Source: Diphasiastrum complanatum (lineage: Eukaryota; Streptophyta; Lycopodiopsida; Lycopodiales; Lycopodiaceae). Taken from it: a stretch of 64,000 bases of DNA. The notes below the pieces were generated by a model. It was given only the letters and a program-made list of their open reading frames with translations, made no database searches and was not told the DNA's origin. Where the stretch lies: NCBI GenBank assembly GCA_029204225.1, contig CM055113.1, positions 7,841,852 through 7,905,851 of the forward strand, in the 5' to 3' direction. This document shows, piece after piece, positions 1 through 56,997 of this stretch (the stretch's first letter is position 1; each line of letters starts with the position of its first letter). A program made the position numbers and the translations under genes.

Positions 1-847
1 AGATACATTTTTATGGCACACATCTATTACGGCTGGACGCTACGGGCATACCTATCCTTCCAGCATACCTTACACAGCCGCTCTCTTTTGATCTGAGATA
101 CCGTATAGGACAACTTAGAGTCTCTTCTCACCAACTTGCTATCGAGACAGGTAGATACACAGACACTCCCAGATTGCAGAGGATATGTCAGCTTTGCTCT
201 CTTCAGGAGGTGGAGGATGAGTTTCACTCATCTTTCGTTGTCCAGAATATTAGAAGATCAAAGGACGATACCATTGTTTATACAGAGATACTCCTCTCAC
301 GCTGAGATCCTTCCTCGAGTATCCAGACCCCATATGTGTAGGTCTTCTTTTGAGAGAGATGTACACTCTACGAGCTTCACTTATACTTACGCTTTCAGAT
401 ACAGATCATGGTCAGGCTCATATTACCGAGTTCTTCCAGAAGCAAGACAGAGAGGATATTTCAGTTGAGGATTTTGAAGTCCCCGTTCGAAGATCCAAGA
501 CACAGAGAGTTTCACATGCTTCTGCTAGATTCAGTACTACCAGGACTTCACGTGCTTCCCACCAGCCTACATCACGCTCCAATACTACCATCCCTCGTTA
601 TTTTCAGCTCGCTCGTAGCTAGTCTCCTCCGCAGAGTAGGTGGTTAAGCTCTTGCATTGTACTCTCGTAAGCTGGTGGTCAAGCTTTGATACTTTTTTTT
701 AGAGATAGAGAGATAGATATACTAGTTCTGTTCTTTTCAATAGTAAATAAGTCCGTATGCGGACAATGCTCCTCACGCTTGTACTCCCTTTTTTGTCTTA
801 TGTATCTTTGGGTACCAAAAGACGTTAATAATAATAATTCTAATTCT

Positions 848-850
<3 letters not shown>
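1..850 (+). mobile_element. LINE fragment: ORF2 C-terminus plus 3' UTR
   Basis: The sense strand encodes the C-terminal part of a LINE ORF2 in several shifted frames. The zinc-knuckle stretch (RICQLCSLQEVEDEFH) lies near 178-235. A serine/arginine-rich tail follows and stops at about 622. The rest is 3' UTR with two family hairpins: 751-764 (GTCCG/CGGAC) and 802-815 (GTATC-TTTG-GGTAC), then GACGTTAATAATAAT leading into a TC tract. The left end lies outside the window. Frameshifts make it a dead copy. It is the first of several + strand copies; the next 16 kb carries the same family on the - strand. Confidence 0.8.
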
Positions 851-922
<72 letters not shown>

Positions 923-1099: not shown

Positions 1100-1512
1100 C
1101 GGGATACAACGTTATCCCCGGATCATGTGGCACAACATGTTGATTTGGAGGTGGGAACTACTGGCCCGATCAGATAAAATGATACCCCTGCACCAAGTTT
1201 CTGCAACATGCATGATTGTTGGAATGACCAATGTGTTGAATAAGTGGCATCTACTCTCACTATTTTTGATATGCCTACGAAAGCACAATCTCACAAGGTT
1301 AACCAAGGAAGCTTGTCCCTTCCCCAACCTTACTAAGATTGTTGACCTAAACTTGGAAATCAGGTGTAAGATTACAACCCCAAGGTAGGTATACGAATGG
1401 ACAATCTCCACTGGCCTCCCATCTTGAGTGCATGAGTGTCTTTGTGCGTAAGCTTTGTTGGTGTTGAAGACAATGATTTTGGTCTTCAAGATATTAACTT
1501 CCAACTCCACAT
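1100..1512 (-). mobile_element. LINE fragment: end of reverse transcriptase region
   Basis: The - strand reads 132 residues (1510 to 1112) homologous to the region just after the RT palm in neighbouring copies: KTKIIVFNT, SYTYLGVV, AETWC and LQINMLCHMIRG. It is truncated at both ends. Its upstream boundary falls in a degenerate CT-rich stretch (about 1513-1533) that is the decayed tail of the preceding copy, so it is the last car of the - strand LINE train. Confidence 0.75.
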
Positions 1513-2201
1513 TCCACAGAGGGAGAAAGAAAACTTTGTTGTCCTTGAATGCTAAAAAGCATATAAGACCAAATCGTACATGTCAAGTGTGATAGTCTAT
1601 GTAGGAGCATGGAAAACATGTCTTTAAAAAACAAAGACTCAAAAAGAAACTAGTCTCTAAAAGCATCTAAGTGAGTTCTAAAAGAAACTTAATGAACTCT
1701 AAGTGAAAACTAGAAAAACTCTAATAAGTGAGTAGATACCATAAAGGATATCGTGATAAAATGATATACTAGTCAATGTCATGAGCTGTATTGGTAGAGC
1801 TGGATCTCTACTGAAGTAAGACGATAGATGCGCCTAATACTATGGATGATGCTGAAGATGATGGAGTCGTCTTCGAGGTCTCTGAACAACTTTCATGAGT
1901 AAACGTTGCCTTTGATCACCATGTCGATCATAGAATGGGATATCAGACTCATCATGGAATGTATCACTCTCAGTGTATGCTCTAGAACGTCTCCTCGAGA
2001 AAAAAGAGGTAATCTGGGATTGGGAGCCTATATCCCCAAGGGGTCGTGTTGGCATGTCTGTCGACGTAGAAGAAACATCTCATGTATCATCAAAATGACA
2101 GAACATGGATTCAAATAGGAAATAAGAGAGCAAAGTGTGAATGGAGTATCGTAGAATAGGCAATGGTAACGCCCTGTGATCTCGTAAAATAAAGGAGGGT
2201 G

Positions 2202-2206
<5 letters not shown>
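1513..2206 (-). mobile_element. 5'-truncated LINE: ORF2 tail plus 3' UTR
   Basis: Reading on the - strand, the copy begins at the (TC)n tract and enters ORF2 just after the zinc knuckle (FYEITGRYHCLF), then the R-rich tail (TSFFSRRRSR) and the 3' UTR. The 3' hairpin at 1549-1562 is ATGCT-TTTT-AGCAT, a compensated variant of the ATGCC-TTTT-GGCAT form in other copies. The tail has decayed to AACAAAGTTTTCTTTCTCCCTCT. Confidence 0.78.

Positions 2207-2280
<74 letters not shown>
2207..2280. repeat. (GA)n microsatellite at LINE-LINE junction
   Basis: About 70 bp of near-pure GA on the + strand, (TC)n in LINE sense. It is at once the 3' tail of the ORF1-only LINE at 2281-3577 and the upstream border of the truncated copy at 1513-2206. 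Confidence 0.97.
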
Positions 2281-2282
<2 letters not shown>

Positions 2283-3574
2283 TTTATTAACGTCTTTTCC
2301 ATGTCGAAAGGCGTATAAGACGAACAAGTACATCAGACAAGATGGAAACAAGACGGATCAGTGCCGTCAAAACAATCTAACTAAAAAACCAAACTAACTA
2401 AGAAGAGAGTGATATAGCCAAGATTATAGGGTACGTGTGCCACTTACATGCTCAACTGAACATCTCTTCATTTCTCTAACTCAGACTCTATCTCAAAATT
2501 AAGACTCCCATTAACTATAGGCTTACGATCCACAAATCTGAGAATGTCGTCACGATAGATGAGCCGTTTGCCAGTTGATAGAGCTTCTTGTCTTTCCTTC
2601 TTACGTTCTTGGACTTGGATGAAAGTAAGATCTTTGTCCAAATAGATTTTGGTATCACGTAATTTAGATCGTTTCCCTAAAACTTTGCGCCGGTGAGACA
2701 CTGACGTGAAGCGGATGACAAAGAGTATCTGGGGCCTTCTTAGGTCGCCAGGCAGTTTCCATACCTTTGCTATGGTGCTGAAGATTTTTTTCCAAAAACT
2801 TTTCGCTTCTTCAACAACATTTTGGGAGTTCCGAATACCTCTAACACGAACATTGAGAGCTTTGTGTTCCCGCAGACGACCCTCAGTGAACATGGCTGAG
2901 ATAAACGAAGGTGATGGCGAAGGTGGAGAGATAACTATAGACGAGCCTTTAACTACATCTGCCCATGATTGGACAGCCGTATGGTGCTGTTCCACCTGAC
3001 TTTTGAGCTGCTGAATTTTAGCTGAAGTAGCGATTTGGGAAGAAGTTTCACTTTTGATAACTGCAACTTCGTTCTTGAGTGCTTCAATGGAAATGTCTAG
3101 CTTCTGAAGGTGCGATTGCACAACGAGAAGCAGAGAATCATGGGAAAGAAGTCTCTCCCTGTGATTGTTCAGGTATTCAAATAGACGGAGTTGATCCTCA
3201 TGAAGAAGATTGACTAAGGTATATGTGGAGAGAGAAGCAGATGCTTTTGGAGTGTCTGGAGTCAAGGGAATAGCTACAGCAGTTTCATTGTTGGGAATAG
3301 GATTTGATGGAGAGATAAGAATTGCAACGGGCATAGAAGTAGAAGGAGAAATTGGATCTGCAATGATGGAAACTGAAGATGGATCAGGAGTAAGGAGAAC
3401 ACCTTTGCGACGAGGCATTTTGCAGATCTGAGGGATAGGCAAGCAAGATCAGCATCAGAGTTGGACAGGCGAGACAGGCAGCCGCAATGGAGCAGGAGGC
3501 ACCATCTGCGATGGACAGATCAGTGATGGGTAGGGGGGACAGGCAGCGACGATGGATCAGGCGCCAACAGCCGC

Positions 3575-3577
<3 letters not shown>
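2281..3577 (-). mobile_element. ORF1-only LINE derivative (half-LINE)
   Basis: In - strand order this unit has a 5' leader that starts at the (TC)n tract, an intact ORF1 and a 3' UTR, with no ORF2 between. About 100 bp after the ORF1 stop comes the family 3' UTR with hairpin 1 at 2352-2368 (GACGG-CACTGAT-CCGTC), hairpin 2 at 2301-2314 (ACGCC-TTTC-GACAT) and GTTAATAAAGC running into (TC)n. A second unit with the same layout and 3' UTR subtype lies at 56992-57723. The layout parallels mammalian HAL1 (half-L1) elements; that comparison is inference from organisation only. Confidence 0.75.
2468..3442 (-). CDS. LINE ORF1 protein (L1 ORF1p-like RNA-binding protein), intact
   Basis: An uninterrupted 324-residue frame; a second possible start (MPRRKGV) lies 8 codons in. 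Residues ~1-75 are Pro/Ser/Thr-rich. Residues ~80-165 are a predicted coiled coil (LRLFEYLNNH through KIQQLKSQVEQHH) ending in SWADVVKG. Residues ~195-260 hold an RRM-like segment (LNVRVRGI, then LFVIRFTSV). Residues ~270-315 match the ORF1 C-terminal domain (YLDKDLTFIQVQERKK, RLIYRDDILRFVD). L1-type ORF1p proteins form coiled-coil trimers that bind the element RNA. No CCHC knuckle is present, unlike the ORF1 of typical plant L1 elements. It is the only uninterrupted ORF1 here; those beside ORF2 are broken. Whether it is expressed is unknown. Confidence 0.72.
   Translation of the reverse strand: MPIPQICKMPRRKGVLLTPDPSSVSIIADPISPSTSMPVAILISPSNPIPNNETAVAIPLTPDTPKASASLSTYTLVNLLHEDQLRLFEYLNNHRERLLSHDSLLLVVQSHLQKLDISIEALKNEVAVIKSETSSQIATSAKIQQLKSQVEQHHTAVQSWADVVKGSSIVISPPSPSPSFISAMFTEGRLREHKALNVRVRGIRNSQNVVEEAKSFWKKIFSTIAKVWKLPGDLRRPQILFVIRFTSVSHRRKVLGKRSKLRDTKIYLDKDLTFIQVQERKKERQEALSTGKRLIYRDDILRFVDRKPIVNGSLNFEIESELEK

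Positions 3578-3625
<48 letters not shown>
3578..3625. repeat. (GA)n microsatellite at LINE-LINE junction
   Basis: About 47 bp of GA. In LINE sense it is the (TC)n tail of the copy at 3626-4286, followed directly by the 5' leader of the ORF1-only element. Confidence 0.97.
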
Positions 3626-3629
<4 letters not shown>

Positions 3630-4284
3630 TTTATTAATGTCTTTTCCATTCCAAAAGGCATATAAGACTAATGAAGTACATGTCAAGTGTGTGGTAACCA
3701 TGGGAGTGTATAAAACATCTCCAAAACTGTAATAAAGAAAACATCTAGTACAAACTAAAATAGACACGTATGCGAGAGTGTGTCTGTGTATCTATGTCAA
3801 GATGTCAAGACACTGCTGTGTTGCTGCTGCTGTAAAAGGATGTAATGTGAGCCACAACATGAGAAGGCACTGGCGTAGGATGTCTGGTGATCCTGGTAGT
3901 AACGTGATGGTGGGAAGTACACTATCTCTGATCTCTATGAGCATGCGAGCAGCTATCATCCTCGTCGTCGTCATAACCCTCATCCTCAGGCACTAAATCA
4001 CGCGATCTCCGCCTAGTAAAGAATGAAGTAATCAATGGTTGTGAGGTAAAATGCTGGGGTGGCTCGTATAAATCTCTCCGTAGGATGAACATCTCGCATA
4101 CCATCAGAACACACATCGTGGGTCCTCATAGGCGATGAGAGAGCGTAGAGTGGTAGGCATGTCTCGAAACAGGCAAAGATATCGCCCTCTGATCTCATAG
4201 TATACAGGGGATCTAAAGATAAAGTGCTCCTCAGACTCCACCTCCTAGAGAGCATAATTGGCAAATCTGCTCCTGTCTAGGGGG

Positions 4285-4286
<2 letters not shown>
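3626..4286 (-). mobile_element. 5'-truncated LINE starting at the zinc knuckle
   Basis: The copy begins a few codons before the zinc knuckle (EQICQLC) immediately after (TC)n. It continues through the ORF2 tail (TSFFTRRRSRDLVPEDE) and the 3' UTR. Hairpin 2 at 3648-3661 is ATGCC-TTTT-GGAAT, followed by GACATTAATAAAGTTAT(CT)n. The copy at 7791-8484 has the same truncation point and close sequence identity, but this one lacks a stretch of about 60 bp that the other carries at 8043-8102. Confidence 0.8.
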
Positions 4287-4357
<71 letters not shown>

Positions 4358-4376
4358 GAATAGAATAGAATAGAAT
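4287..4376. repeat. (GA)n plus (ATAGA)n LINE tail
   Basis: GA repeats (4287-4354) followed by four ATAGA units. In LINE sense the tail reads ATTAATATATTC, (TATTC)n, then (TC)n. This pentamer-plus-dinucleotide tail marks one subfamily and recurs at 8834-8868; a shorter version occurs at 13609-13706. Confidence 0.95.
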
Positions 4377-7300
4377 ATATTAATGTCTTTCGGGTGCCCT
4401 TGGGCACATAAGACAAAGAAAAAGTACATCAGAAAGGAGCGTTGTCCATGTTGGACTTATTTCTATCTGCTAAAGCTAAAAACAGAATAAACTGGAAATA
4501 AAACCAAAGCTTAACCTCCAGCTATGGTGAGGGTACAAAAGCAGTAGCTTAACCACCAGCTACGCGGAGGAGTACAACTCACTAACCGAAAGAGAAAAAC
4601 TGTGTGATCTGGTGTGAGGCACACGGTGGCCTCTGATGACGAACTCTGGACGGTCAAGGAAGATGCTGGAGCTTCGGTCGTCGAGCTAGAATGTCAATCT
4701 CACGGTCCGAAATATCATCCTTAACTCTTTCTGAAAGAAAAGTGTAATATGTGGCTGGCTGTGGTCAACATCCTGATCATCTGACAAAAGAGAAGATCTC
4801 AAAGAGAACATCTCTCGTAATAGCAAACCAACACGTCTCGCATCTAGATAGGCAAAGAAGGAATCAAGTGTGAGTGGAATGTCCCGATAGAGACAATGGT
4901 ATCTGCCTCTGATCTCATCGTAAGCTGGACATCTAAAAATAAAGTGAAACTCATCCTCAACTGCCTGTAGTGTACAACACTAACAGATTCGTAAGGGTCG
5001 TGGTGTGTCTATGTATGTGCCTCTCTCAATAGCGAGCTGATGAGAAGAGACCCGAAGCTGACCAATGGTAGCGCAGGCCAAAAGACAGCACCTGAGAGAG
5101 ATAACTCTGTCTGACGGGAAGCCCTGAAGCAAGGTGAAGCAAGTGAGTATGATAGAACTGAAGCTTAACCCGTGATGGATCCAGGTGAGACCAGACAGTG
5201 TGTATGTATGCTCTGTAGATCTGTCAGCGAATGAACGTATGAGTCCCATTTGGGAGGTCAGACATAGACAATCCCCAACTATGTAGAAAGTCCGAAGCAT
5301 ACTGAAACCATGAAGACTTAGCCCGCTGCCCAGCCAAGTGCGAGAGGATGTAAAAGTTGCTACCACGTATATGGAGGAATCAAGCTCTGAGATTCTGTGA
5401 ATGAATGTGATAATCTTGAAAATAGCCTCGACAAGTAGTGGAGGAGAAGCAAACTCCGCCAGAATAATCTCATGAGGAACGGACTGCTTGGCCCGAATCA
5501 TCCCGCTAAGCATGTGAATCTGTAAACGCGAGATATCACTCCAAGTATCTCTAGATAAGCCTGGGCACCATGTCTCTGCTGAGTATAGTGCCACTGGAGA
5601 AACAGTCAAAGAAAAGAGGCGATATTGTGTGTCTGGATCGTGCACATAATAAGTAGAGGAAAACCTCTCCATCTGAACAAGAGCAGAGCGCCCCTTGCGG
5701 AGCCTAGCCAATGCAGCTGGTCGAAACGAAAGCAATGGGCCAGAAAAGAGAACACCCAGGTATGTGTAAGACGCTACTATCTCTAGAGGCTGTCCATAGT
5801 ACATAGTATCTCTCATATGCTGCCTGTTGGTGTTAAACACCATAACCTTAGTCTTTCCAATGTTCACCATTAGCCCCCATATCTGACAGAAAGTATACAA
5901 AGCATCCAGATGTCGCTGAAGTCCTGTAGCTGAACTAGATAGTAAAACCACATCATCTGCATAAAGAAGGATGGGGATAACAATATCTGCTAAAGGACAG
6001 CCATCCCCCCCTTCTTCCCGAATAATACGCTGAAGGTCGTCAATGTACAAAGCAAAAAGGGTGGGTGATAAAGGACATCCCTGCTTTACTCTGACTGTAC
6101 TATGAATATATGAAGACCATCCATCTCCATCACAAAATCTGGCCAAAACTCTCTCATATAATGTGAGTATAGCAGCAATGATCTCCTGTGAGAAACCAAG
6201 GGATGCCAGACGCTGGAGCAGCAAGTGTCGCGGAACTAAATCAAATGCTTTGCGGAAGTCCACAAAACAGCAATAGACTCTCTGTTTCTTGAACTTCGCG
6301 GCCTCAATGATACATCTCAGTATGAATATCTGGTCTGCTGTGGAGTAGCCTGCTCTAAAACCTGCCTGTCCCATAAACATATAACTCTTCTGTCTCTGCA
6401 TGAGCGCTGATGATAGACTGCATAACCAAACCATAGAGCTTAGTCATAGTGTGGCTGATCATAATAGTTCGATAGTTGTCTACATTCAGAGGACCACCAG
6501 CCTTAAGTATAGGGTGCAAAAGGTTAGTACACCAAGGTGTGGGAAGGCCAAAAATAACAGATTGGTTAAAAACGTAGGAGATGTATGGAGCAACAATATG
6601 GGCGATAGGTTTTAGAAAGTCCATACTTAGAGAGTCAACATCAATGGCTTTATGGTTTTGGCCATTTTTTATGGCGTTTTCAATCATGGACGGAGTGAAA
6701 AGGGTGAATTCTGAAGGTCAGGGTGAGAGAGAGATGGAAGGAGAGTCAACTGTATAAAGTTTTGCAGCATAGTCAATCCACGATTCAATGGCAATAGGAG
6801 CTGGCATACATGAGTTTTTAGAAAACATCTTCCAAAAGAAGGTGGAAGAAGAAGAGTCCAAAAATCGATGAGTTTTTGTGCCAGAGATTGAAAGTACATG
6901 GTTTGCTTCTGCAAAGTCATCCTACGGTATTCTCTTTGTTTAGATGCTAAGGTGTCGGGAGAATGATTTTGAGCATAAACAACCTGCTTGTGTAGAGAGA
7001 GGCACTCATCATCATACCATCTATTGTAAGTGCGTTTATAAGATGAGAAAGTTTTGGAAGGATAAGCAGTATTGGCTGAGCAAAGAAGCGACTGAGATAA
7101 AAAGGCGGCTTGCTGGTCCACTGAAGATGAGAAGGGAAAATCGTCGAGCATTGTGGCCAAAGAGGAAGTGTAAGTAGGAAGACCAATTGGAGAGAAAGAA
7201 CGACGATGGTGGCGTGTGGAATGTGGAGTCGTAACAGTACCAAGAGTAGCATGGCCAAGAGACAGGAGCAATAGAGAGTGATAAGAGATGGTAGGGTGCA

Positions 7301-7724
7301 TAATACGAAAAGTATGAAGAAACGGAATTAAGGTTGGTGTGCCAATGAAGTAGTCAACAACGCTGTGTCCACCACCGTGCAGATGGCAGGTAAAAACTGA
7401 TGATGATGGCCACCGAGAAAGGCCATTCAGAATGGCTAAAGAGTGAGCTTCTGCAAGTCCAATCAACTGTTCTCCAAAGTGTGTAGCTGGGGTATTAGCA
7501 TCCTGAGAGGTCTTGTCCAAACCCACATCCAAAACCTGAATATGGAGGAAATCACTATCTGCATGAAGCTCTGTTTGCTGGGTGTTGGTGCGAGCGTTAA
7601 AATCACCTGCTAATAAAATAAGGCCCTGCTGTGCAAAGCTGGCTATATCATCTGAAAGAGCCTGGAAGGGGTCACCACCATAATCTGCAAAAGCTGATGT
7701 CTGAGGTGCAAAATAACAAACTGC

Positions 7725-7726
<2 letters not shown>
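4355..7726 (-). mobile_element. LINE, 5'-truncated within the endonuclease
   Basis: In LINE sense the copy starts in the endonuclease (AVCYFAPQTSAF) directly after (TC)n and runs through RT, C-terminus and 3' UTR. Hairpin 1 is at 4444-4456 (GTCCA-ACA-TGGAC) and hairpin 2 at 4394-4407 (GTGCC-CAAG-GGCAC). It belongs to the subfamily with a (TATTC)n(TC)n tail. Both borders lie in (GA)n tracts and no host flank separates it from its neighbours. Confidence 0.88.
4585..7726 (-). pseudogene. LINE ORF2 (endonuclease-reverse transcriptase), broken
   Basis: Three overlapping frames (7726-6684, 6687-6355, 6434-4980) rebuild most of an ORF2. The endonuclease has GDFNAR, but the usual SDH triad is SYH (ISYHSLLLL), so this copy probably cannot nick DNA. 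NRWYDDECLSLHKQ precedes the RT. RT blocks seen are GQAGFRAGYSTADQIF, CFVDFRKAFDLVPRHLL, KQGCPLSPTLFALYIDDL and LLYADDVVLLS, with the catalytic YADD intact. The long frame stops at a TAG (4980-4982) inside the zinc knuckle, where related copies have CAG. The rest of the knuckle continues in frame beyond it. Confidence 0.88.

Positions 7727-7790
<64 letters not shown>
7727..7790. repeat. (GA)n microsatellite at LINE-LINE junction
   Basis: About 64 bp of GA joining the 3' tail of the copy at 7791-8484 (sense AATAAAGCTTTCTTT then (CT)n) to the truncated endonuclease start of the next copy. Confidence 0.97.
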
Positions 7791-7795
<5 letters not shown>

Positions 7796-8480
7796 AAGCT
7801 TTATTAATGTCTTTTCCATGCCAAAAGGCATATAAGACTAATGAAGTACATGTCAAGTGTGTGGTAAACATGGGAGTGTATAAAACATCTCCAAAACCGT
7901 AATAAAGAAAACATTTAGTACAAACTAAAATAGACACGTATGCGAGAGTGTGTCTGTGTATCTATGTCAAGATGTCAAGACTGTGCTGTGTTGCTGCTGC
8001 TGTAAAAGGATGTAATGTAAGCCACAACATGAGAAGGCACTGGAACTTGTCGGCGTCGTCTGTGAACATGAGCATGTGTAGTAGTACTTCTCTGCGTGGT
8101 AGTCTGGTGATCCTGGTAGTAACGTGATGGTGGGAAGTACACTATCTCTGATCTCTATGAGCATGCGAGCAGCTGTCATCCTCATCCTCAGGCACTAAAT
8201 CACGCGATCTCCGCCTAGTAAAGAATGAAGTATTCAATGGCTGTGAGGTAAAATGCTGGGGTGTCTCGTATAAATCTCTCCGTAGGATGAACATCTCGCG
8301 TACCATTAGAACGACACATCGTGGGTCCTCATAGGCGATGAGAGAGCGTAGGGTAGGCATGTCTCGAAACAGGCAATGATATTGCCCTTTGATCTCATAG
8401 TATACAGGGCATCTAAAGATAAAGTGCTCCTTAGACTCCACCTCCTGGAGAGCATAACTGGCAAATCTGCTCCTCTCTAG

Positions 8481-8484
<4 letters not shown>
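7791..8484 (-). mobile_element. 5'-truncated LINE starting at the zinc knuckle
   Basis: Starts a few codons before the knuckle (REEQICQLC) right after (TC)n and includes the knuckle (FIFRCPVYYEIKGQYHCLF), ORF2 tail and 3' UTR. Hairpin 2 at 7818-7831 is a perfect ATGCC-TTTT-GGCAT, followed by GACATTAATAAAGCTTTCTTT(CT)n. It shares its truncation point with the copy at 3626-4286, pointing to duplication or to a short mobile derivative. Confidence 0.82.

Positions 8485-8560
<76 letters not shown>
8485..8560. repeat. (GA)n microsatellite at LINE-LINE junction
   Basis: About 76 bp of pure GA between the 3' UTR fragment at 8561-8833 and the truncated copy at 7791-8484. Confidence 0.97.
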
Positions 8561-8564
<4 letters not shown>

Positions 8565-8833
8565 AAGCTTTATTAATGTGTTTCCCATACCAAAAGGCAT
8601 ATAAGACAAAAGAAGTACATGTCAAGTATGTGGTAACCATGAGAGCGTCTAAAACGTCTCCAAAGCTGTAATAAAGAAAAACATCTAGTTCAAACTAAGA
8701 TAAATACATAAATGAGAATGTCTCCTGTGCAGAGTAGTCATATGTATCCATGTCAAGATGTCAGGTCTGTGTTGACGTTGTAGAAGGATGTAATGCGAGC
8801 TGCAGCATGAGGAAGCGCTGGAGGCGTCATCTG
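8561..8833 (-). mobile_element. LINE 3'-UTR fragment
   Basis: About 270 bp, 3' UTR only. It starts after the short (TC)n tail of the next LINE upstream and ends with hairpin 2 at 8587-8600 (ATGCC-TTTT-GGTAT) and ACATTAATAAAGCTTTCTTT(CT)n. No coding sequence is left. Confidence 0.72.
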
Positions 8834-9055
8834 TGAGAGAGAGAGAATAGAATAGAATAGAATAGAATATATTAATGTCTATAGAGTGCCCTTGGGCACA
8901 TAAGACAAAGAAAAAGTAATCAGAAAGGAGCAGTGTCCATGTCGGACTTATTGCTATCAACTACAACTAAAAAAAACAGAGATAAACTGGAAATAAAAAC
9001 CAAAGCTTAACCTCCAGCTATGGTGAGGGTACAAGAGCAATAGCTTAACCACCAG

Positions 9056-12000
9056 CTACGTGGAGGAATGCAACTCACCAACTGAGGGAGAAAAACTGTG
9101 TGATTTGGTGTGAGGCACATGGTGGCCTCTGGTGACGAACTCTGGATGGTCGAGGAAGCTCGGTCGACGAGTTGGAATGTCAATCTCACTATCCGAAGTA
9201 TCTTCCCTAGCTCTTTTCTGAAAGAAAAGTGTAGTATGTGGCTGGCCGCGGTCAACATCTTGATCATCTGACAGAAGTGAAGATCTCAAAGAGAACATCT
9301 CTCGCAAAAGTAAACCAACACATCTCGCATTTGGATAGGCAAAGAAGGAACCAAGCGTGAGTGGAGTGTCCTGATATAGACAGTGGTATCTGCCTCTGAT
9401 CTCATAGTAAGCTGGACATATGAAAATAAAGTGAAACTCATCCTCAACCTCATGTAGAGTACAGCACTGACAGATCCGTAATGGGCGTGGCGTGTCTGTG
9501 TATCTGCCAGTCTCAATAGCTAGCTGATGAGAAGAGACCCGAAGCTGACCAATGCGGTAGCGCAGGCCAAAAGACAGCGTCTGAGAGAGAGAACTCGGTC
9601 TTACGGGTAGCCCTGAAGTATCCAGGTGAAGAAAGTGAGTGCGGTAGAAATGACGCTTAATCCGTGAGGGATCCAGGTGAGACCAAACAGTATGTATGTA
9701 TGCTCTGTAGATCTGTCGGCGAATGAACACATGAGTCCCATTTGGGAGGTCAGACATATACAATCCCCAGCTATGTAGAAAGTCCGAAGCATACTGAAAC
9801 CATGAAGACTTAGCCCGCTGCTCGGCCAAAGTGCGAGAGGATGTAAAAGCTGCTACCACGTATCTGGAAGACTCAAGCTCTGAGACTCTATGAATGAACG
9901 TGATGATCCTGAAAATAGCTTCTACAATCAGTGGAGGAGAAGCAAACTCCGCCAAAATAAGCTCATGAGGAACTGACTGCTTGGCCCGAATCATCCGGCT
10001 AAGCATGTCTCGGCAAACGCGAGATGTCACTCGAAGTATCTCTAGATAAGCCAGGGCACCATGTCTCTGCTGAATACAGTGCAACTGGAGAAACAGTCGA
10101 AGAGAAGAGGCGACAACGTGTGTCCGCGTCATGCACGTAATAAGAGGAGGAAAACCTCTCCATCTGAACAAGAGCAGAGCGCCCCTTGCGGAGCCTAGAG
10201 CCAATGCAGCTGGTCTAAAAGAAAGCAATGGACCAGAGAAGAGTACACCCAGGTATGTGTAAGATGCCACTATCTCTAGAAGCTGTCCATCAAAATAGAA
10301 TATAGTGTCTCTCATATGCTGCCTGTTGGTATTAAACACCATAACCTTAGTCTTACTAATGTTCACCATCAGCCCCCATATCTGACAAAAAGTAGACAAG
10401 GCATCCAGATGTCGCTGAAGTCCTATAGCTGAACTAGAGAGTAGAACCACATCATCTGCATAAAGAAGGATAGGGATAATAAGATCTTCAAGAGGATAGC
10501 CATCTCCACCTTCTTCCCGAATGATCCGCTCAAGGTCGTCAATGTATAGAGCAAATAGGGTGGGTGATAAGGGACATCCCTGCTTTACGCCGACCGTACT
10601 ATGGATATATGAAGACCATCCATCTCCATCACAGAATCGGGCCAAAACTCTCTCGTATAATGTGATGAAAGCAGCAATGACTTCCTGTGAGAAACCAAGG
10701 GATGCCAAACGCTGGAGCAGCAACTTGTCTCGGAACCGAATCAAATGCTTTGCGGAAGTCCACAAAGCAGCAATAGACTCTCTGTTTCCTGAACTTCGCC
10801 GCCTCAATGATACACCTCAGTATGAATATCTGGTCCGCTGTGGAATAGCCTGCTCTAAAACCAGCCTGTCCCATAGCATATAACTCCTCTGTCTCTGCAT
10901 AAGAGCTGATGATAGACTGCATAACTGAACCATAGAGCTTAGCCATAGTGTGACTGATCATAATAGTAGGATAGTTGTCTACATTCAGAGGATCACCAGC
11001 CTTAAGTATAGGGTGCAACATGTTAGTACACCAGGATGTGGGAAGGCCAAAAATAACAGATTGGTTAAAAATGTGGGAGATGTATGGAGCAACAATATGG
11101 GCGATTGTTTTAGAAAGTCCATACTTAGAGAGTCAACATCAATGGCTTTATGGTTTTGACCATTTTTTATGGCGTTTTCAATCATGGACGGAGTGAAAAG
11201 GGTGAATTCTGAGGGTCGCGGTGAGAGAGAGATGGAAGGAGAGTCAATTGTATAAATTCTTGCAGCATAGTCAATCCAAGATTCAATGGCAATAGGAGCT
11301 GGCATACATGAGTTTTTAGAAAACATCTTCCAAAAGAAGGTAGAAGAAGAGGAGTCCAAGGAATCGATGAGTTTCTGTGCCAGAGACTGAAAGTACGTAG
11401 TCTTTTTCCGCAAAGTCATTCTATGGTATTCTTTTTGTCTAGATGCTAAGGTGTCGGGAGAATGGTATTGAGCGTGAACAACCTGCTTGTGTAGAGAGAG
11501 GCACTCATCATCATACCATCTATTGTAAGTGCGTTTATGAGACGAGAAAGTTTTCGGAGGATATGCAGCTCTGGCTGAGTGAAGAAGCGACTGAGATAAA
11601 AAGGCGGCTTGTTGGTCTACCGAAGATGAGAAAGGGAAATCGTCGAGTAGTGTGGCCAGAGAGAAAGTGTACGTAGGAAGACCAAGTGGAGAGAAAGATG
11701 GATGATTGCCACGTGTGGAATGAGGTGTCGTAGCAATACCACGAGTGGCACGGCCCAGATGGCCATCGAGATAGGCCATTCAAAATGGCTAACGAGTGAG
11801 CTTCTGCAAGTCCAATCAGCTGTTCTCCAAAGTGTGTAGCCGGGGTATCTGCATCCTGAGAGGTCCTATCCAAACTCACATCCAAAACCTGGATATGTAG
11901 GAAATCACTATGTGCATGAAACTCTGTCTGCTGGGTGCTGGTACGAGCATTAAAATCTCCTGCTAAAAGAATAAGGCCTTGTTGTGCAAAGCTGGCTATA

Positions 12001-12400
12001 TCATCTGAGAGAGCCTGGAAGGGGTCACCACCATAGTCTGCAAACGCTGATGTCTGAGGTGCAACATAACAAACTGCTATAAAGAGATCTTGAGGTAGCC
12101 CCAAGTAGTGACCAAAAAATTGTAACCAGATGAAACGTGCAAATGGATCACTTTTGAGCAGCTTAAAATGAGTACGATAAACTTCCTTGGTAAGACATGC
12201 AACACCACCAGAGCCATGTGTGGTTTTTCCTCGAACGAAAGGCATGTATGCTGAATGCCATGAATAATCCTGAATGGCTGGAAGAGGTCGATATAGTGAT
12301 TCATGAGTCTCTGCTAAGAGAAAAATATCACATTGCTGCAAAAGAGAGTGAAAGTCTCTACTGAAGAAGATGAAAGCACACCGTTACAATTCCAAAAACC
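9056..12400 (-). pseudogene. LINE ORF2 (endonuclease-RT-zinc knuckle), broken
   Basis: The endonuclease N-terminus (LLAETHESLYR, GSGGVACLTKEVYRTHF) and GDFNAR are present. The segment with the SDH triad is deleted at about 11760, where RWPSG joins the next block. RT blocks FRAGYSTADQIFILR, CFVDFRKAFDSVPR, VGVKQGCPLSPTLFALYIDD and LLYADDVVLLSSS lie in two overlapping frames (11021-10629 and 10807-9056). The zinc knuckle CQCCTLHEVEDEFHFIFIC fits C-x2-C-x9-H-x4-C. A tail rich in Arg, Ser and Pro ends near 9056. RT motifs are intact, so only the endonuclease deletion and the frameshift near 10730 disable it. Confidence 0.87.
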
Positions 12401-12454
12401 AATTCGTAATGGCTGAGGGGATTTCGGGCAGTTGTTCCCGGGATCCCCGACTTC

Positions 12455-13226
12455 CTATTGTGAAATTTTATCGTAGAATTTAGGCTTGCCTTCAATAAAT
12501 ACCACTCTTTGATTCCTAGCATTGGCCTCATGAATGACCAATTTCCTCGCTTGCCTTTGTGTGTGTGTTAGATCTTCATCCATGAAAATAAAAGATCCTT
12601 TGAGCTTAGCTCGAAGGCGTAAAGTAGCATTGCGTCGTTCAAAACTCGTATATTAAGAGCCTTCTTGGCTCTTCTCTCATGTTCCGTAAAAACATTCTCT
12701 AGGGTAGAATTCATTAACGAAGGCTGAACTTGGCTAGAGAAATTACCGTCCTGTTTAAGAACTGAAGCCCAAGTACGAGTTTCTTCCACTTCCTTTGCCA
12801 AGGACGAGATTTTACTTTCCACATCTTGCTGCGAATGAGTATCGTGCATCCCTTTCTCTTTCATCATGTCGATAGTGCTTTGCAAATCCTTATTTTTAAG
12901 AATGACCCTGCTAAGTTCTCCATGAAGCGTCTGATTTTGTAGCTGCAATTTCTCGATAAATTGAAACACTTCTTTGAACTGATGTTGTAAGTAGCTGTGA
13001 AGAGAATCAAAGTCGGATAAGTTGCTAGGTTGTAATTGCTCTGCGGGGATATGATAGGCATCTACAAAAGATAAAATCGGGACCGGTACATTGGCAATGC
13101 CCGGCAAAGAAGACGAGGTGATGATTGGCCGACAGTTGAAGAGCCAACGATGGCCAAGTTAGCAGGTGAGTGGCAAGCAGGAGAAGAGGGGGGCGAAGGA
13201 GACGCCCCCTTTTTGATTGAGGCCAT
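12455..13226 (-). pseudogene. LINE ORF1, broken
   Basis: The likely start is MASIKKGASPSP at 13226. A frameshift near 13100 moves to the frame with EQLQPSNLSDFDSLH, then a coiled coil (FQFIEKLQLQNQTLHGELSR to SSLAKEVEETRTWASVLKQD) and FTEHERRAKKALNIRV. The RRM-like core after ALNIRV is deleted and the frame jumps to the C-terminal domain (FMDEDLTHTQRQARK, then VVFIEGKPKFYDK), ending about 12455. Compared with the intact ORF1 at 2468-3442, roughly 60 residues are missing. Spacing to ORF2 is about 50 bp. Confidence 0.75.
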
Positions 13227-13606
13227 ATCAAAGATGCTGACAGGGCATGAGCGGGACAGAACCTGAGGACAGGTAGGGACTGGTCAGGGAAGGCAGGATC
13301 GGAGCGGATAGGACCTGAGCGGAGGACAGAAGCAAGCTAAAACCTCCAGTAGAAAGTCCAGAGTCTAATTACAAAGTTGCCAGAAGCTCCTCATACAAAG
13401 GGTGCCGCCTCAGAATAAGCCTCGCTTGAGCTTCGCTAGCAAGAGTTGTCCATGCATCTATATCATATTTGTAAGTGTTGATCTGCTACGCTCCTTCTCG
13501 TTCAATGGCGAGCCAAGCCCAACAATCTTCGAAGGATGACATGTAGCCGTATGAGATCCGAACTGCTCCAGTTGGCCTAACAAATCTTGATCGTCCCAAC
13601 AAACAC

Positions 13607-13608
<2 letters not shown>

Positions 13609-13693
<85 letters not shown>
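13609..13693. repeat. (GA)n microsatellite at LINE-LINE junction
   Basis: About 84 bp of GA. In LINE sense it is the tail of the copy at 13694-17842 and the direct upstream border of the 5' UTR of the nearly full-length copy. Confidence 0.97.
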
Positions 13694-13697
<4 letters not shown>

Positions 13698-13875
13698 ATA
13701 GAATATATTAATGTCTACAGAGTGCCCTCGGGCACATGAGACAAAGAAAAAGTACATCAGAAAGGAGCATTTCTATCAGCTTAAACATAGAATAAAACAG
13801 AAATTAACCGGAAATAAAACCAAATCTTAACCTCCAGCTATGGTGAGGGTACAAAAGCAATAGCTTAACCACCAG

Positions 13876-16800
13876 CTACGTGGAGGAATAAAACTTACTA
13901 ACTGAGAAAGAAAAACTGTGTGATCTGGCGTGAGGCACATGGTGGCCTCTGGTGGCGAACTCTGGATTTGGATGGTCGAGGAAGATGCTGGAGCTTCGGT
14001 CGTCGAGTTGGAATGTCAATCTCACTGTCCGAAATATCATCCTTAACTCTTTTCTGAAAGAAAAGTGTAATATGTGGCTAGCTGTGGTCAACATTCTGAT
14101 CATCTGACAAAAGAGAAGATCTCAAAGAGAACATCTCTCGTAATAGCAAACCAACACATCTCGCATCTGGATAGGCAAAGAAGGAATCAAGTGTGAGTGG
14201 AATGTCCCGATAGAGACAACGGTATCTACCTTTGATCTCATAGTAAGCTGGACATCTTAAAATAAAGTGAAACTCATCCTCAATTGCCTGTAGTGTACAG
14301 CATTGACAAATCCGTAAGGGTTGTGGTGTGTCTGTGTATGTGCCTGTCTTAATAGCGAGCTGATGAGAAGAGACCCGAAGCTGACCAATGGTAGCGCAGG
14401 CCAAAAGATAGCGCCTGAGAGAGATAACTCGGTCTGACGGAAGCCCTGAAGCCCCAAGGTGAAGCAAGTGAGTATAATAGAACTGAAGCTTAACCCGTGA
14501 TGGATCCAGGTGAGACCAGACAGTGTGTATGTATGCTCTGTAGATCTGTCGGCGAATGAACGTATGAGTCCCATTTGGGAGGTCAGACATAGATAATCCC
14601 CAGCTATGTAGAAAGTCCGAAGCATACTGAAACCATGAGGACTTAGCCCGCTACCCGGCCAAAGTGCGAGAAGATGTAAAAGACCGCTACCACGTATCTG
14701 GAAAAATCAAACTCTAAGACTCTATGAATAAATGTGATGATCCTGAAAATAGCCTCTACAATCAATGGGGAAGAAGCAAACTCTGCCAAATAATCTTGTG
14801 AGGAACTGACTACTTGGCCCAAATCATCCGGCTAAGCATGTGAATCTGCAAACGCGAGATGTCACTCCAAGTATCTCTAGATAAGCCTGGACACCATGTC
14901 TCTGCTGAATACAGTGCAACTGGAGAAACAGTCGAAGAGAAAAGGCGACAACGTTTATTAGGGTCATGCACGTAATAAGTAGAGGAAAACCTCTCCATCT
15001 GAACAAGAGCAGAGCGCCCCTTGCGGAGCCTAGCCAATGCAACTGGTCTAAAAGAAAGCAATGGACCAGAGAAGAGAACACCTAGGTATGTGTAAGACGC
15101 AACTATCTCTAGAAGCTGTCCATCATAATAAAACATAGTGTCTCTCATATGCTGTTTGTTGGTGCTAAACACCATAACCTTAGTCTTATCGATGTTCACC
15201 ATCAGCCCCCATATCTGACAGAAAGTATACAAGGCATCCAGATGTCGTTGAAGTTCTACAGCCGAACTAGATAATAGAACCGCATCATCTGCATAAAGAA
15301 GGATAGGGATAACAATATCTGCTAGAGGACAGCCATCTTCACCTTCTTCCCGAATGATCTGCTCAAGGTCATCAATGTATAGAGCAAATAGGGTGGGTGA
15401 CAAAGGACACCCCTGCTTTACTCCGACCGTTGTGGGGTAGCCTACTCTAAAACCTGCCTGACCCATAGCGTATAACTCCTCTGTCTCCGCATGAGAGTTG
15501 ATGATAGACTGCATAACCGAGCCATAAAGCTTAGCCACAGTCTGGCTGATCATAATAGTGTGATAGTCGTCTACATTCAGAGGATCACCATTCTTAAGTA
15601 TAGGGTACAATTTAGAAAGTCCATACTAAGAGAGTCAACATCAATGGCTTTTTTGGTTTGACCATGTTTGATGGCGTTTTGCAATCATGGACGGAGTGAA
15701 AAGGGTGAATTCTGATGGTCGCGGTGAGAGAGAGATGGAAGGAAAGTCAACTGTATAAAGTTTCGCAGCATAGTCAATCCAAGATTCGAGGGCAATAGGA
15801 GCTGGCTTATATGAGTTTTAGAAAACATCTTCCAGAAGGTGGAAGAAGATGAGTCCAAGGAATCGATGAGTTTCTATGCCAGAGATCGAAAGTAAGCGGT
15901 CTTTTTTCGCAAAGTCATGCTATGGTATTTCCTTTCGTTTAAATGCTAAGGTGTCGGGAGAATGGTATTGAGTGTGAACAACTTGCTTGTGTAGGGAGAG
16001 GCACTCATCATCGTACCATTTATTGTAAGTGCGTTAATGAGATGAGAAAGTTTTTGGTGGATATGCAGTATTGGCTGAGTGAAGAAGTGACTGAGATAAA
16101 CAGGCTGCTTGTTGGTCTACTGAAGATGAGAAGGGGAAGTAATGGAGCAATGTGTTTAAAGAGGAAGTGTATGTAGGAAGACCAAACAGAGACAAAGAAG
16201 GACAATGGCGACGGGTGGGAGGTGTCGTAACAGTGCCAGGAGTAGCATGGCCAAGGGACAGGAGCAATAGAGAGTGATCAGAGATGGTAGGGTGCATAAT
16301 ATAATAAGTATGAAGAAAAGGAATCAAGGCCGATGAATCAATGAAGTAGTCAACAACGCTATGTCCACCCCCGTGTGGATGGCAAGTAAAACCTGATGAT
16401 GACGGCCATCGAGGTAGGCCATTCAGAATGGCTAAAGAGTGAGCTTCTGCTAGTCCAATCAACTGTTCTCCAAAGTGTGTAGCTGGGGTATCTGCATCCT
16501 GAGAGGTCCTGTCCAAACCCACATCCAAAGTCTGAATCTGTAGAAAATCACTATCTGCATTAAACTCTCCCTGCTGGGTGCTGGTGCGAGCATTAAAATC
16601 TCCTACTAGTAGAATAAGGCCCTGTTGTGCATAGTTGACTATATCATCTCAGAGAGCCTAGAATGGGTCACCACTGTAGTCTGCAAAAGCTGATGTCTGA
16701 GGTGCAAAATAACAAACTGCTATAAAGAGATCTTGAGGTAGCCCCAGGTAGCGACCAAAAAACTGTAACCAAATAAATCTCGCAAATGGCTCACTTTTGA

Positions 16801-17060
16801 GCAGCTTAAAATGAGTACGATAAACCTCCCTGGTAAGACATGCGACACCACCAAAGCCACGCGCTGATTTTCCTCTCAAGAAAGGCCTGTACGTTGAATG
16901 CCATGAATAATCCTGAATAGCTGGAAGGGGTCGATACAGTTATTCATGGGTCTCTGCTAAGAGCAAAATAGCACATTTCTGCAAAAAAGAGTGAAAATCC
17001 CCTGCTGAAGAAGATGAAAGCACACTGTTACAATTCCAAAAACCAATTTGTAATGGCTGA
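13876..17060 (-). pseudogene. LINE ORF2, broken by stops and an RT deletion
   Basis: The endonuclease is well preserved: LLLAETHE, GFGGVACLTREVYRTHF, GDFNAR and the SDH triad (TISDHSLLLL). In the RT, GQAGFRVGYPT joins directly to VGVKQGCPLSPTLFALYIDD near 15430. The piece carrying motif A (FRKAFD) is therefore missing, about 75 residues. YADDAVLLSSS is present. The zinc knuckle (CQCCTLQAIEDEFHFILRC) and the tail follow in other frames (14590-14078, then to 13876). Confidence 0.83.
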
Positions 17061-17099
17061 GGGGATCTCGGGCTGTTCTGCCCGGGATCCCCGACCTCC

Positions 17100-17842
17100 T
17101 ATTTTGAAATCTTATCATAGAATTTAGGCTTGCCTTCAATAAAGACCAATGTTTGATTCCTAGCATTGGCCTCCTGAATGACCAATTTCTTCGCTTGCCA
17201 TTTTGTGTGTGTTAGGTCTTATTCATAAAGTTTCGTTCAATGGAACGAAACTTTATGAATAAGACCTTATCATCAAATTTACTCTGCCAAGCAGTTTCAA
17301 ATCCCTCAATATCATGTGAAAGTTTAGATACAAGAAGGCCTTTCGCCTCATCAAGAGCCTTGTTTCCATTAGGAATACCCCTAACTCGGATATTAAGAGC
17401 CTTCTTGGTTCTTCTCTCTTGTTCTGTAAAAACATTCTCCAAAGTAGAATTCACTAAAGAGGGCTGAACGTGGTTAGAGGAAACATTACCATCTTGCTTA
17501 AGAACCGAACCCCAAGTACGAGTTTCTTCCACTTCCTTTGCCAAAGACGAGATTTTACTTTCCACATCTTGCTGCGAATGAAGATCTTGCACCCCTTTCA
17601 CTTTCATCATGTGACATGTCAATAGTTCTTTGCAAGTCCTTATTCTGAAGACTGACCTTGATAAGTTCTCCATGAAGCATCTGATTTTGTAGCTGCAATT
17701 TCCTGATAAATTGTAGTACTTCTTTGAACTGATGTTGTAAGTAGCCGTTAAGAGATTCGAAGTCGGATATATTGCGAGGTTGTAATTGTTCTACATGGAT
17801 ATGATAGGCAAGGTAGGAGTCTAATGGAACAGGTGCATTCAC
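17100..17842 (-). pseudogene. LINE ORF1 with foldback lesion
   Basis: Starts MNAPVPLDSYLAYHIHVEQL, then coiled coil (FIRKLQLQNQMLHGELIKVS; ESKISSLAKEVEETRTW), KALNIRVRGIPNGNKALDEA and DDKVLFIKFRSIE. There the frame runs into a 25-bp perfect inverted repeat and a stop. Only the last part of the C-terminal domain (DLTHTKWQAKK, KPKFYDKISK) resumes after it. About 40 residues between were lost. Confidence 0.75.
17214..17267. repeat. perfect 25-bp inverted repeat with 4-nt loop
   Basis: The left arm (17214-17238) and right arm (17243-17267) are exact reverse complements around the loop AATG. The right arm in LINE sense is ORF1 coding sequence (VLFIKFR region); the left arm is its inverted copy. 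This looks like a snap-back synthesis event that replaced the deleted ORF1 segment. Confidence 0.95.
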
Positions 17843-20690: not shown

Positions 20691-21936
20691 CCTTCATCTC
20701 ATAATATACTGGACAATGAAAGATGAAATGGAACTCATCCTCCATCTCATGAAGAGAACAAAGTTGACATATCCTCTGCAATCTGGGAGTGTCCGTGTAT
20801 CTACCCATCTCAATAGCCAGCTGATGGGAAGAGGCTCGGAGCTGTCCCATACGGTACCGCAGACCAAAAGATAATGGCTGTGTAAGATATGCTGGAAGGA
20901 CAGGCGTACCTGTAGTATCCAACCGTAGTAGATGTGTGCCATAGAAATGTATCTTGACCTTATCAGGGTCGGGCTGTGACCATATAGTGCGTATGTAACT
21001 ACGATAAATATGTTGTCTGATATACGCATGAGTCCGGCTCGGAAGATCAACTACAGATAAGCCCCAAGTACGAAGAAGGGCTGAGACACTGCCAAACCAA
21101 GAATGCTTGGCCCCCTGTCCAGCAATGGTGCGTGATGAAGTGAGAGCAACAACAATATATCTGGAAGTGTCTAACTCTGATATCCTGTGAAGAAAGGTAA
21201 TGATCTGAAACATAGCACCGATAACCAGGGGAGGGGAAGCAAACTCCGCTAATATGATATCATGTGGCACCGAGGGCTTAGCCCTAATCATCCTGCTAAG
21301 CATGAGAATTTGGATACGAGTAAGATCCCTCCAAGTATCACGTGATAAAGGACACCAAATCTCAGCAGAGTATAAAACAACCGGGGAGACAGTGGTAGAA
21401 AATAGTAAGCATCTGGTAGCAGGGTCCTGTACATAATATGTGGAACAGAATCTCTCCATATGAACAAGAGAAGTGTGCCCCTTACGGAGTCTGGTGAGGG
21501 CTGCCGGTCGGAATGTGAGTAGCGGACCAGAAAAAAGTACTCCCAAATAAGTGTAAGAGGTCACAATCTCAATCGGCAGCCCATCATAATAAAAGGTCAC
21601 ATCTCTCATATGCTGTCTATTGGTGTTGAACACCATAATCTTGGTCTTCTTGGTATTAACCGTCAATCTCCAAAGTTGATAGAAGTGATGTAAAGCAGAA
21701 AGGTGTCTCTGTAAGCCAGCTGCAGAGGATGAGAGAAGAACCACATCATCAGCGTATAGGAGAATGGGGATAATAATATTTGCTAAAGGACAGCCTTCTC
21801 CACCTTCCTCTCGAATAATCCGCTCGAGGTCATCAATATATAGTGCAAAGAGAGTAGGAGATAAGGGGCAGCCCTGCTTCACTCCAATAGTAGAATGGAT
21901 CAGCGAGGACCAACCACTACCGTCCCTGAACCGCGC

Positions 21937-21938
<2 letters not shown>
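20691..21938 (-). mobile_element. LINE fragment: RT to zinc knuckle
   Basis: In LINE sense it starts directly after (TC)n at an RT loop, then GVKQGCPLSPTLFALYIDDL, LLYADDVVLLSSS, SYTYLGVLFSG and the knuckle CQLCSLHEMEDEFHFIFHC, and breaks at YYEMKD. About 400 codons are open, the best preserved RT C-terminal half in the window. The 3' UTR is absent. The frame runs on into unrelated sequence (20691 to 20491) with no recognised domain. Confidence 0.85.

Positions 21939-22014
<76 letters not shown>
21939..22014. repeat. (GA)n microsatellite upstream of truncated LINE
   Basis: About 75 bp of GA; in LINE sense (TC)n immediately precedes the truncation point. The sequence beyond it (GGAAAAAAT in sense) lacks the family 3' hairpin, so here the tract may be the original target rather than the tail of another copy. 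Confidence 0.96.

Positions 22015-22024
<10 letters not shown>

Positions 22025-31135: not shown

Positions 31136-31208
<73 letters not shown>
31136..31208 (+). repeat. (CT)n microsatellite upstream of LINE tip
   Basis: About 73 bp of CT. A 142-bp LINE tip follows directly and is itself followed by another CT tract: the (TC)n-LINE-(TC)n pattern in miniature. Confidence 0.97.
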
Positions 31209-31211
<3 letters not shown>

Positions 31212-31350: not shown

Positions 31351-31395
<45 letters not shown>

Positions 31396-37736: not shown

Positions 37737-37739
37737 ACA

Positions 37740-56991: not shown

Positions 56992-56997
<6 letters not shown>

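Follow-up and report, generated by a model that had tools for sequence, protein, structure and literature searches.

Analysis of a 64,000-nucleotide window of the Diphasiastrum complanatum genome (bases 7,841,852-7,905,851 of contig CM055113.1) revealed a head-to-tail row, here called a train, of nine segments of long interspersed nuclear elements (LINEs). The train lies on the minus strand at approximately positions 1100-17842 of the window. The TC strand is the sense strand of the LINEs; pure (GA)n on the plus strand equals (TC)n in minus-strand copies. An original prediction, made from the letters of this DNA, had described nine segments on one strand with TC at seven of the eight joints and had proposed that such elements insert into (TC)n. 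The sequence, the tract list and the reading frames confirmed the row at these positions. Seven of the eight joints are pure sense-strand (TC)n of 12 to 84 bp, and the eighth consists of a short pyrimidine stretch that is degenerate, also as predicted. The train consists of the following features, all on the minus strand (ORF, open reading frame; EN, endonuclease; RT, reverse transcriptase; UTR, untranslated region).

13694..17842, minus strand: copy I, ORF1 to 3' UTR; 5' end within the ORF1 region, no TC there; decayed, with 16 in-frame stops in two aligned ORF2 stretches
13609..13692, minus strand: (TC)42 tract behind copy I, 5' border of copy II
8847..13608, minus strand: copy II, near full length, with ORF1, EN, RT, CCHC and 3' UTR
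8835..8846, minus strand: (TC)6 tract, joint II/III, 6 units only
8561..8834, minus strand: copy III, 3' UTR fragment
8485..8560, minus strand: (TC)38 tract, joint III/IV
7792..8484, minus strand: copy IV, C-terminal part of ORF2 and 3' UTR; 5' start common to copy VI (probable local duplicate pair)
7728..7791, minus strand: (TC)32 tract, joint IV/V
4355..7727, minus strand: copy V, 5'-truncated in EN, RT and 3' UTR kept; TC 3 bp from the coding start
4287..4354, minus strand: (TC)34 tract, joint V/VI
3626..4286, minus strand: copy VI, paired with copy IV
3578..3625, minus strand: (TC)24 tract, joint VI/VII
2282..3577, minus strand: copy VII, half-LINE; ORF1 (2468-3448, 326 residues, open) directly onto the 3' UTR, no ORF2 match
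2207..2276, minus strand: (TC)35 tract, joint VII/VIII
1534..2206, minus strand: copy VIII, C-terminal ORF2 and 3' UTR, decayed
1513..1533, minus strand: degenerate pyrimidine tail, joint VIII/IX
1100..1512, minus strand: copy IX, RT-region fragment without a 3' end

The LINE segments in the window belong to several subfamilies, and the train members likewise fall into different subfamilies and differ in length. The train as a whole is not bordered by TC: copy I has no TC tract at its 5' end (about 17842), nor does copy IX at its 3' end (about 1100). Decay is unequal among the copies. In the aligned ORF2 stretches, the 16 in-frame stops of copy I compare with 2 in copy V and 1 in copy II, and copy IX shows 39% identity to the open ORF2 of a relative elsewhere in the genome (L044). 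This unequal decay argues that the copies were inserted one by one and not in one simultaneous event.

Pairwise comparison of train members gave 3.9% substitutions for copies IV and VI, 9.5% for II and V, and 10.7% for I and II. The pairs other than IV/VI differ in their ends. The word at the 5' start common to IV and VI has TC nearby at three places genome-wide, the third of which has different letters. Because this start lies beside TC at only these two LINE places, one of the two copies is probably a local duplicate of the other. The differing truncation points that had been predicted hold for the train overall, with IV and VI as the exception. Segmental duplication, named in the prediction as evidence to the contrary, is probable within the train for this pair only. 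The pair hints at local duplication as a further process mediated by TC joints.

Copy I contains a perfect 25-bp inverted repeat with a 4-nucleotide (nt) loop at 17214-17267, which is a fold-back rearrangement. Inspection of copy II by eye revealed no such repeat.

Sequences flanking LINE copies across the genome

The genome searched comprised 1,744,706,496 bases in 5,176 contigs. GA served as the strand-matched control for TC, and CA served as a further control. The 3'-end word AAGACRTTAATAAAG occurred 3,481 times forward and 3,548 times reverse, and its backward control occurred 5 and 7 times. For gapped patterns, forward matches were counted as one per word among the matches listed; reverse counts are inflated by overlaps and were left out. 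The pattern TCTCTCTC, (TC)4, was present within 15 nt after 2,145 of the 3,481 forward words. The corresponding GA pattern, GAGAGAGA, (GA)4, was found once forward and not at all in reverse. The CA pattern, CACACACA, (CA)4, was found four times forward and once in reverse, and its listed matches go through pyrimidines first. A 12-nt pyrimidine run started within 3 nt after the word at 3,026 of the 3,481 forward ends. Among the first 30 ends on contig C1, which were not chosen for TC, a pyrimidine run was present at 24 and (TC)4 within 15 nt at 17. The ends without (TC)4 in this sample mostly have (CTTT)n or (CTT)n tails, and a few have neither. Many tails grade from (CTTT)n into (TC)n, and some are (CTT)n. 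The target is therefore better called a pyrimidine microsatellite with TC preferred.

The 5' flank was analyzed with TCTCTCTCTC, (TC)5, located at most 30 nt before the 3'-UTR word TTGACATGTAC. This arrangement occurred at a minimum of 37 places genome-wide, namely, 21 reverse and at least 16 forward (from the best 100 of 124 matches). In the same search, (GA)5 was found before TTGACATGTAC at no place, and the (CA)5-type control was found at one place, which is not LINE by its letters. After the tract, the 37 listed TC places continue in 25 different sequences, of which three are of chance type; about 30 of the places are LINE. Hence, once the three chance types are set aside, TC is directly followed by LINE sequence in 22 different truncations, spread over many contigs. 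Inspection covered 31 of the 37 places, the six left out being apparent repeats of others or chance types. It identified 28 LINE copies and 3 chance matches (L092-L094); the chance types make up 7 of the 37 places.

In 15 of the 28 verified short copies, a LINE 3' end or LINE sequence stands right before the TC tract, and in the other 13 it does not. Two of these 13 (L065 and L066) have LINE-like sequence approximately 200 bp farther upstream. By eye, the 28 include five near-duplicate pairs (L065/L066, L068/L086, L073/L083, L081/L082, and L084/L091), the removal of which leaves about 13 distinct copies behind a LINE and about 10 that are not. At four places (L067, L072, L074, and L087), a LINE piece of approximately 60-75 bp in non-LINE DNA has TC at either end. 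At L076 and L078, TC is present on the 5' side and almost absent from the 3' side. A 5' TC tract preceded by non-LINE DNA indicates that the tract predates the element, and the missing 3' tract of L076 and L078 indicates that it is not an obligatory RNA tail.

These copies bear on an explanation in which TC is the element's own 3' tail, RNA-borne or made by RT slippage, and in which trains are concatemers of one event, RT having left one RNA at its 5' end and resumed at the 3' end of another. Short-repeat tails are usual in LINEs, for example, TAA in the I element and TGTAA in UnaL2 according to the passage on such tails in PMC3747384, and the grading of (CTTT)n into (TC)n fits such an origin. 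Of the 28 short copies, 15 stand behind a LINE, compared with 1 of 10 TC or GA tracts with adjoining LINE matches in five random 10-kb pieces, which is a small sample. On these numbers, trains look commoner than they would if TC tracts were chosen at random. Nevertheless, the explanation is improbable in view of the 13 short copies with 5' TC and no LINE directly before it, of L076 and L078 with no TC tract on the 3' side, and of the unequal decay within the train.

A second alternative is that trains arose by segmental duplication or by unequal exchange between TC tracts and not by insertion. The 5' start that IV and VI share at two places only, their low divergence, and the five near-duplicate pairs would agree with this. 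On the other hand, the remaining train pairs are 9.5-10.7% apart with different ends, the members differ in subfamily and length, and the 22 truncation sequences that abut TC are spread over many contigs. Duplication explains one train member and is insufficient for the whole, for which it is hardly credible.

Coding-block starts gave a less uniform picture of the 5' side. Four of 65 starts lay too near the sequence end, which left 61. A TC tract was present within 60 bp upstream of 13 of these (five of them inside the window), and a GA tract was present at 1. For comparison, a TC tract ended within 60 bp upstream of 1.7% of 20,000 random positions in sampled DNA, and a GA tract did so at 2.2%. 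Among 34 elements with upstream sequence, including the two false ends E20 and E30, the truncated copies E6, E13, and E18 start within a few bases of TC, and other truncated copies do not. The element E0 (L009) has (TC)n(CA)n on its 5' side, which points to a compound microsatellite as target.

TC tracts are abundant in this genome. The 20-mer (TC)10 has 1.9 million overlapping matches per strand, and LINEs might lie near such tracts by chance or selection with no targeting at all. Genome strand symmetry predicts equal numbers for TC and GA. The observed numbers were 2,145 TC against 1 GA on the 3' side and at least 37 TC (about 30 LINE) against 0 GA on the 5' side. The TC excess is not chance, and this explanation is refuted. 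In the five random 10-kb pieces, LINE coding matches were found in one and the short 3'-end motif in none. The TC enrichment on both flanks that follows from the original prediction was thus found. The predicted insertion into (TC)n is supported by both flanks relative to their controls and by tracts that stand before the element, and it does not extend to a universal 5' TC (13 of 61).

Trains are not limited to the window. For 30 unselected 3' ends, a LINE coding match within 1.2 kb downstream was in the same sense in 17 cases and in the opposite sense in 1, and 12 ends had none. Among the first 100 ends on contig C1, 21 gaps were shorter than 5.5 kb, compared with about 2 expected under uniform spacing. 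The neighbors across these gaps were on the same strand in 18 cases and on opposite strands in 3 (one-sided P = 0.0007). At 5.5-20 kb, 8 neighbors were on the same and 10 on opposite strands, and beyond that distance the numbers were 24 and 32. The pattern is thus genome-wide.

3' stem-loop and coding capacity

Preserved 3' ends have GTCTTAT-(stem)-loop-(stem)-..AAGAC-RTTAATA in common. The motif matched 44 times, with two false matches (E20 and E30). The other 42, together with the degenerate ends of copies III and VIII, gave 35 distinct ends, in which 92.8% of 348 cells are paired. Control structures slid by 1 to 3 columns pair in 33-59%. Five pairs changed on both sides, in 19 cells; 14 of 500 shuffles reached five pairs, and none of 500 reached 19 cells. 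Further pair types numbered 11, which was not beyond the number in shuffles (9.7, with 77 of 500 reaching 11). Analysis of a smaller set of 25 picked ends by RNAalifold recovered nine of the ten pairs unaided. A covarying 3' hairpin is a mark of stringent-type LINEs and is described for one monocot L1 lineage in the hairpin passages of PMC3747384. The conserved 3' stem-loop gives the elements studied here this stringent-type feature.

The coding capacity was deduced from L044, a relative on contig C1 with an open ORF2 of 1183 residues preceded by an open ORF1 of 460 residues. A Pfam scan of this ORF2 identified an APE endonuclease (PF03372; 2.5e-14; residues 22-273) and a reverse transcriptase (PF00078; 1.6e-33; residues 532-784). 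One CCHC knuckle, C-x2-C-x9-H-x4-C, is present at residue 1042. The same scan revealed no RNase H family at E≤0.1 and no restriction-like endonuclease domain. The L1 group of plants named in part of PMC4640811 carries an RNase H domain in ORF2, in contrast to the ORF2 of L044.

Searching PDB with the RT by phmmer gave the R2 protein (5.7e-24) and human L1 ORF2p (1.2e-21), which does not separate L1 from R2. With copy II as the RT query, human L1 came first (9e-13). Five window sequences served to model the structure of a window ORF1 (36835-37509). The model shows a coiled coil followed by strands and helices in the order of an RRM and a C-terminal domain, at low confidence (predicted local distance difference test 66; predicted template modelling score 0.35). 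In a fold comparison, all seven PDB chains at E≤0.001 were human L1 ORF1p, with template modelling scores (TM-scores) of 0.28-0.36 over approximately 185-200 columns. On the basis of this low-confidence model, ORF1 appears L1-like. A sequence profile of ORF1 compared with PDB matched mainly coiled-coil proteins, and L1 ORF1p was absent among the 52 matches listed. Taken together, the LINEs in question are best explained as autonomous L1-like elements with truncated and ORF1-only relatives.

The ORF1-only half-LINEs are copy VII (2282-3577) and two copies at other loci (L024, 518-1273; L036, 346-1272). In each, the ORF1 frame runs directly onto the stem-loop 3' UTR. HAL1, the half-L1 of mammals, is likewise an ORF1-only element with a LINE 3' end; it differs from the half-LINEs found here, which have ORF1 directly on the stem-loop 3' UTR and belong to a separate host lineage. 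At L019 and L030, an endonuclease part lies close to a 3' part and the RT core is missing.

Proposed insertion mechanism and known systems

The best reading of these data, to which we assign a probability of about 0.82, is target-primed insertion into (TC)n in which each copy creates a new target, so that trains result. The reverse transcriptase would recognize the conserved 3' stem-loop and TTAATA. Reverse transcription would be primed at a (TC)n microsatellite by a nick in its purine (GA) strand, and annealing of the pyrimidine RNA end to the GA primer may aid the start. Priming from the GA strand would orient the copy along the TC strand and usually leave tract on both sides. The (TC)n behind the 3' end would then be the landing site for the next copy. 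As each insertion would leave a new (TC)n target, head-to-tail trains would grow stepwise. By function, the elements are microsatellite-specific LINEs with one orientation and the repeat on both sides, the repeat not being universal at the 5' side.

Several observations weigh against this reading. At the 3' side, 1,336 of the 3,481 forward ends lack (TC)4 within 15 nt. Because TC was a selection criterion in the genome count at the 5' side, that count gives specificity, not frequency. A 5' test of a second subfamily (word TGATGTACTT..) yielded one locus only, with no GA control. No TC tract was present within 60 bp of 48 of the 61 coding-block starts, which mix full-length copies behind a 5' UTR, decay breaks in old copies, and true non-TC starts. 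Eleven upstream regions, chosen mainly for apparent absence of TC, contained a TC tract in E0 and E3 only, and nine did not. Neither a target-site duplication nor an empty site was readable at the copies in this one genome. The probable local duplication of IV/VI counts against insertion for this one member.

It is also conceivable that insertion is endonuclease independent: fragile TC tracts would break, and the pyrimidine RNA tail would prime on the exposed GA ends, with an endonuclease that has no preference for TC. The same orientation and flanks are expected in that case, the (CTT)n and (CTTT)n tails are present as well, and some copies have no TC at their 5' end. We consider this route unlikely, since the APE endonuclease domain is retained in the open ORF2 of L044.

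Microsatellite-specific LINEs of the animal Tx1 group (Kibi and others) were reportedly described by Kojima and Fujiwara in 2004, and Kibi is said to use (TC)n. They are likewise APE-endonuclease LINEs that lie in a simple repeat in one orientation. The elements studied here differ from them in their green-lineage host, their ORF1, which resembles L1 ORF1p in the structural model, their head-to-tail trains, and their ORF1-only relatives. It is an evenly balanced proposition that L1-type LINEs of the green lineage evolved strand-specific (TC)n insertion apart from animal Tx1, with about half of the insertions landing behind earlier copies, and that they form self-extending one-way trains which carry ORF1-only passengers and recombine via TC joints.

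Microsatellite-specific LINEs as such are already known, as far as the LINE survey in PMC4640811 goes, and microsatellite-joined plant arrays are known from SaTar, as presented in the array passages of PMC5907723. Togen, with (TG)n families, and HERO families target microsatellites; in the relevant part of PMC4640811, HERO is listed among the restriction-like endonuclease clades and Togen is listed as related. The shared trait is microsatellite specificity, and the endonuclease is restriction-like in those clades and of the APE type here. That part names target-specific LINEs of animals, oomycetes, and other organisms, and none of plants or algae (PMC4640811). Among the matches listed from the open-licence literature, no plant or algal microsatellite-targeting LINE was found.

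SaTar elements of guayule and rice are nonautonomous Mutator-like DNA transposons that form nonnested linear arrays at microsatellites, predominantly (TA)n (PMC5907723). They are thus also plant mobile elements joined in linear arrays at microsatellites; in contrast to the one-way retroelements described here, they are DNA transposons for which those passages report no fixed orientation. Identity with SaTar was ruled out: the elements are LINEs with RT, and the termini inspected consist of a 3' end with a stem-loop and of 5' truncations that vary, unlike the terminal inverted repeats of a Mutator-like transposon. The stringent-type L1 of maize and sorghum also has a covarying 3' hairpin, which differs from the one found here, and its description in the passages of PMC3747384 mentions no microsatellite target. 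Zepp of Coccomyxa forms nested LINE clusters, one per chromosome and probably centromeric, as outlined in part of PMC3446292. LINE copies are clustered in both cases; Zepp copies are nested and, in that part, are not described at microsatellites. A megablast search of a plasmid collection gave no match, and no relative was found in IMG/VR.

An APE-endonuclease microsatellite LINE in a green-lineage host could represent a second origin of the same strategy. It could also be a natural system for asking which of the two, the endonuclease or the annealing of the primer, sets the target. Insertion that supplies the next target would be a simple and testable mechanism both for LINE clustering and for the way TC repeats spread through large genomes.

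Other features of the window

Outside the train, the window contains the following LINE copies and TC tracts.

1..850, plus strand: facing copy with ORF2 end, 3' UTR, hairpin, and AATTC tail, then (TC)14(CA)21
851..878, plus strand: (TC)14 after the 3' end of the facing copy
20693..21938, minus strand: solo 5'-truncated RT copy; 5' end abuts (TC)38
21940..22015, minus strand: (TC)38, 5' border of the preceding copy; no LINE match before the tract
31137..31208, plus strand: (TC)36, 5' border of a solo 3'-UTR fragment
31209..31349, plus strand: solo 141-bp 3' fragment with hairpin and TTAATAAAG; TC on both sides
31350..31403, plus strand: (TC)n with one interruption, 3' border of the 141-bp fragment
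33388..37509, minus strand: copy of related family D, with ORF1 (36835-37509) and EN/RT (34927-36834)
37736..39190, plus strand: 3' part of related family A; no TC tract at either end
56932..56993, plus strand: (TC)31, 5' border of a solo copy
56994..57723, plus strand: solo copy with coiled-coil ORF1-like frame (by eye), 3' UTR, and hairpin; probably of the half-LINE type; TC on both sides
57724..57785, plus strand: (TC)31 running into (CA)n, 3' border of the preceding copy
63446..64000, minus strand: family D fragment; (TC)16 at 63366-63397, 48 bp past its end, in the same sense

The tract list and the sequence verified the recurrence of the pattern that had been predicted at 21939-22014, 31136-31403, and 56932-57815. 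Orientation along the TC strand holds at every one of these sites and also at 851-878, a plus-strand 3' end. Ends without a TC tract are the 3' end near 20693 and both ends of the copy at 37736-39190. The family D copy at 33388-37509 lacks a TC tract as long as 12 bp at either end and has a 9-base CT run near its 3' side. At 851-920 and 57724-57815, the tract after the 3' end changes from (TC)n to (CA)n, which likewise points to compound microsatellites as targets. No LINE adjoins the long TC tracts at 22622-22717, 56213-56254, and 56542-56599, and these three are candidate empty targets.

Other repeats are present in the window. Direct repeats at 42088-43032 and 46343-47370, located 4.3 kb apart and approximately 80-97% alike by stretch, flank a frame at 43805-44350 that we take to be copia-like; the repeats are probably long terminal repeats. 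Short fragments of the RuBisCO large chain were detected in long contigs at two further loci (L062 and L063) and are probably insertions of plastid DNA. Comparison of a 48-residue piece with large chains gave best matches of 77-79 bits, presumably to land-plant enzymes, followed by 1rbl (75.5 bits), which we take to be cyanobacterial, and 1gk8 (71.4 bits), presumably from Chlamydomonas. These matches are a weak pointer to a host of the green lineage, perhaps a streptophyte. Two copies of a long element, at 50676-52895 and 58187-61313, are approximately 74-94% alike by stretch and include a frame at 59175-61193, presumably encoding a BED-finger hAT transposase.

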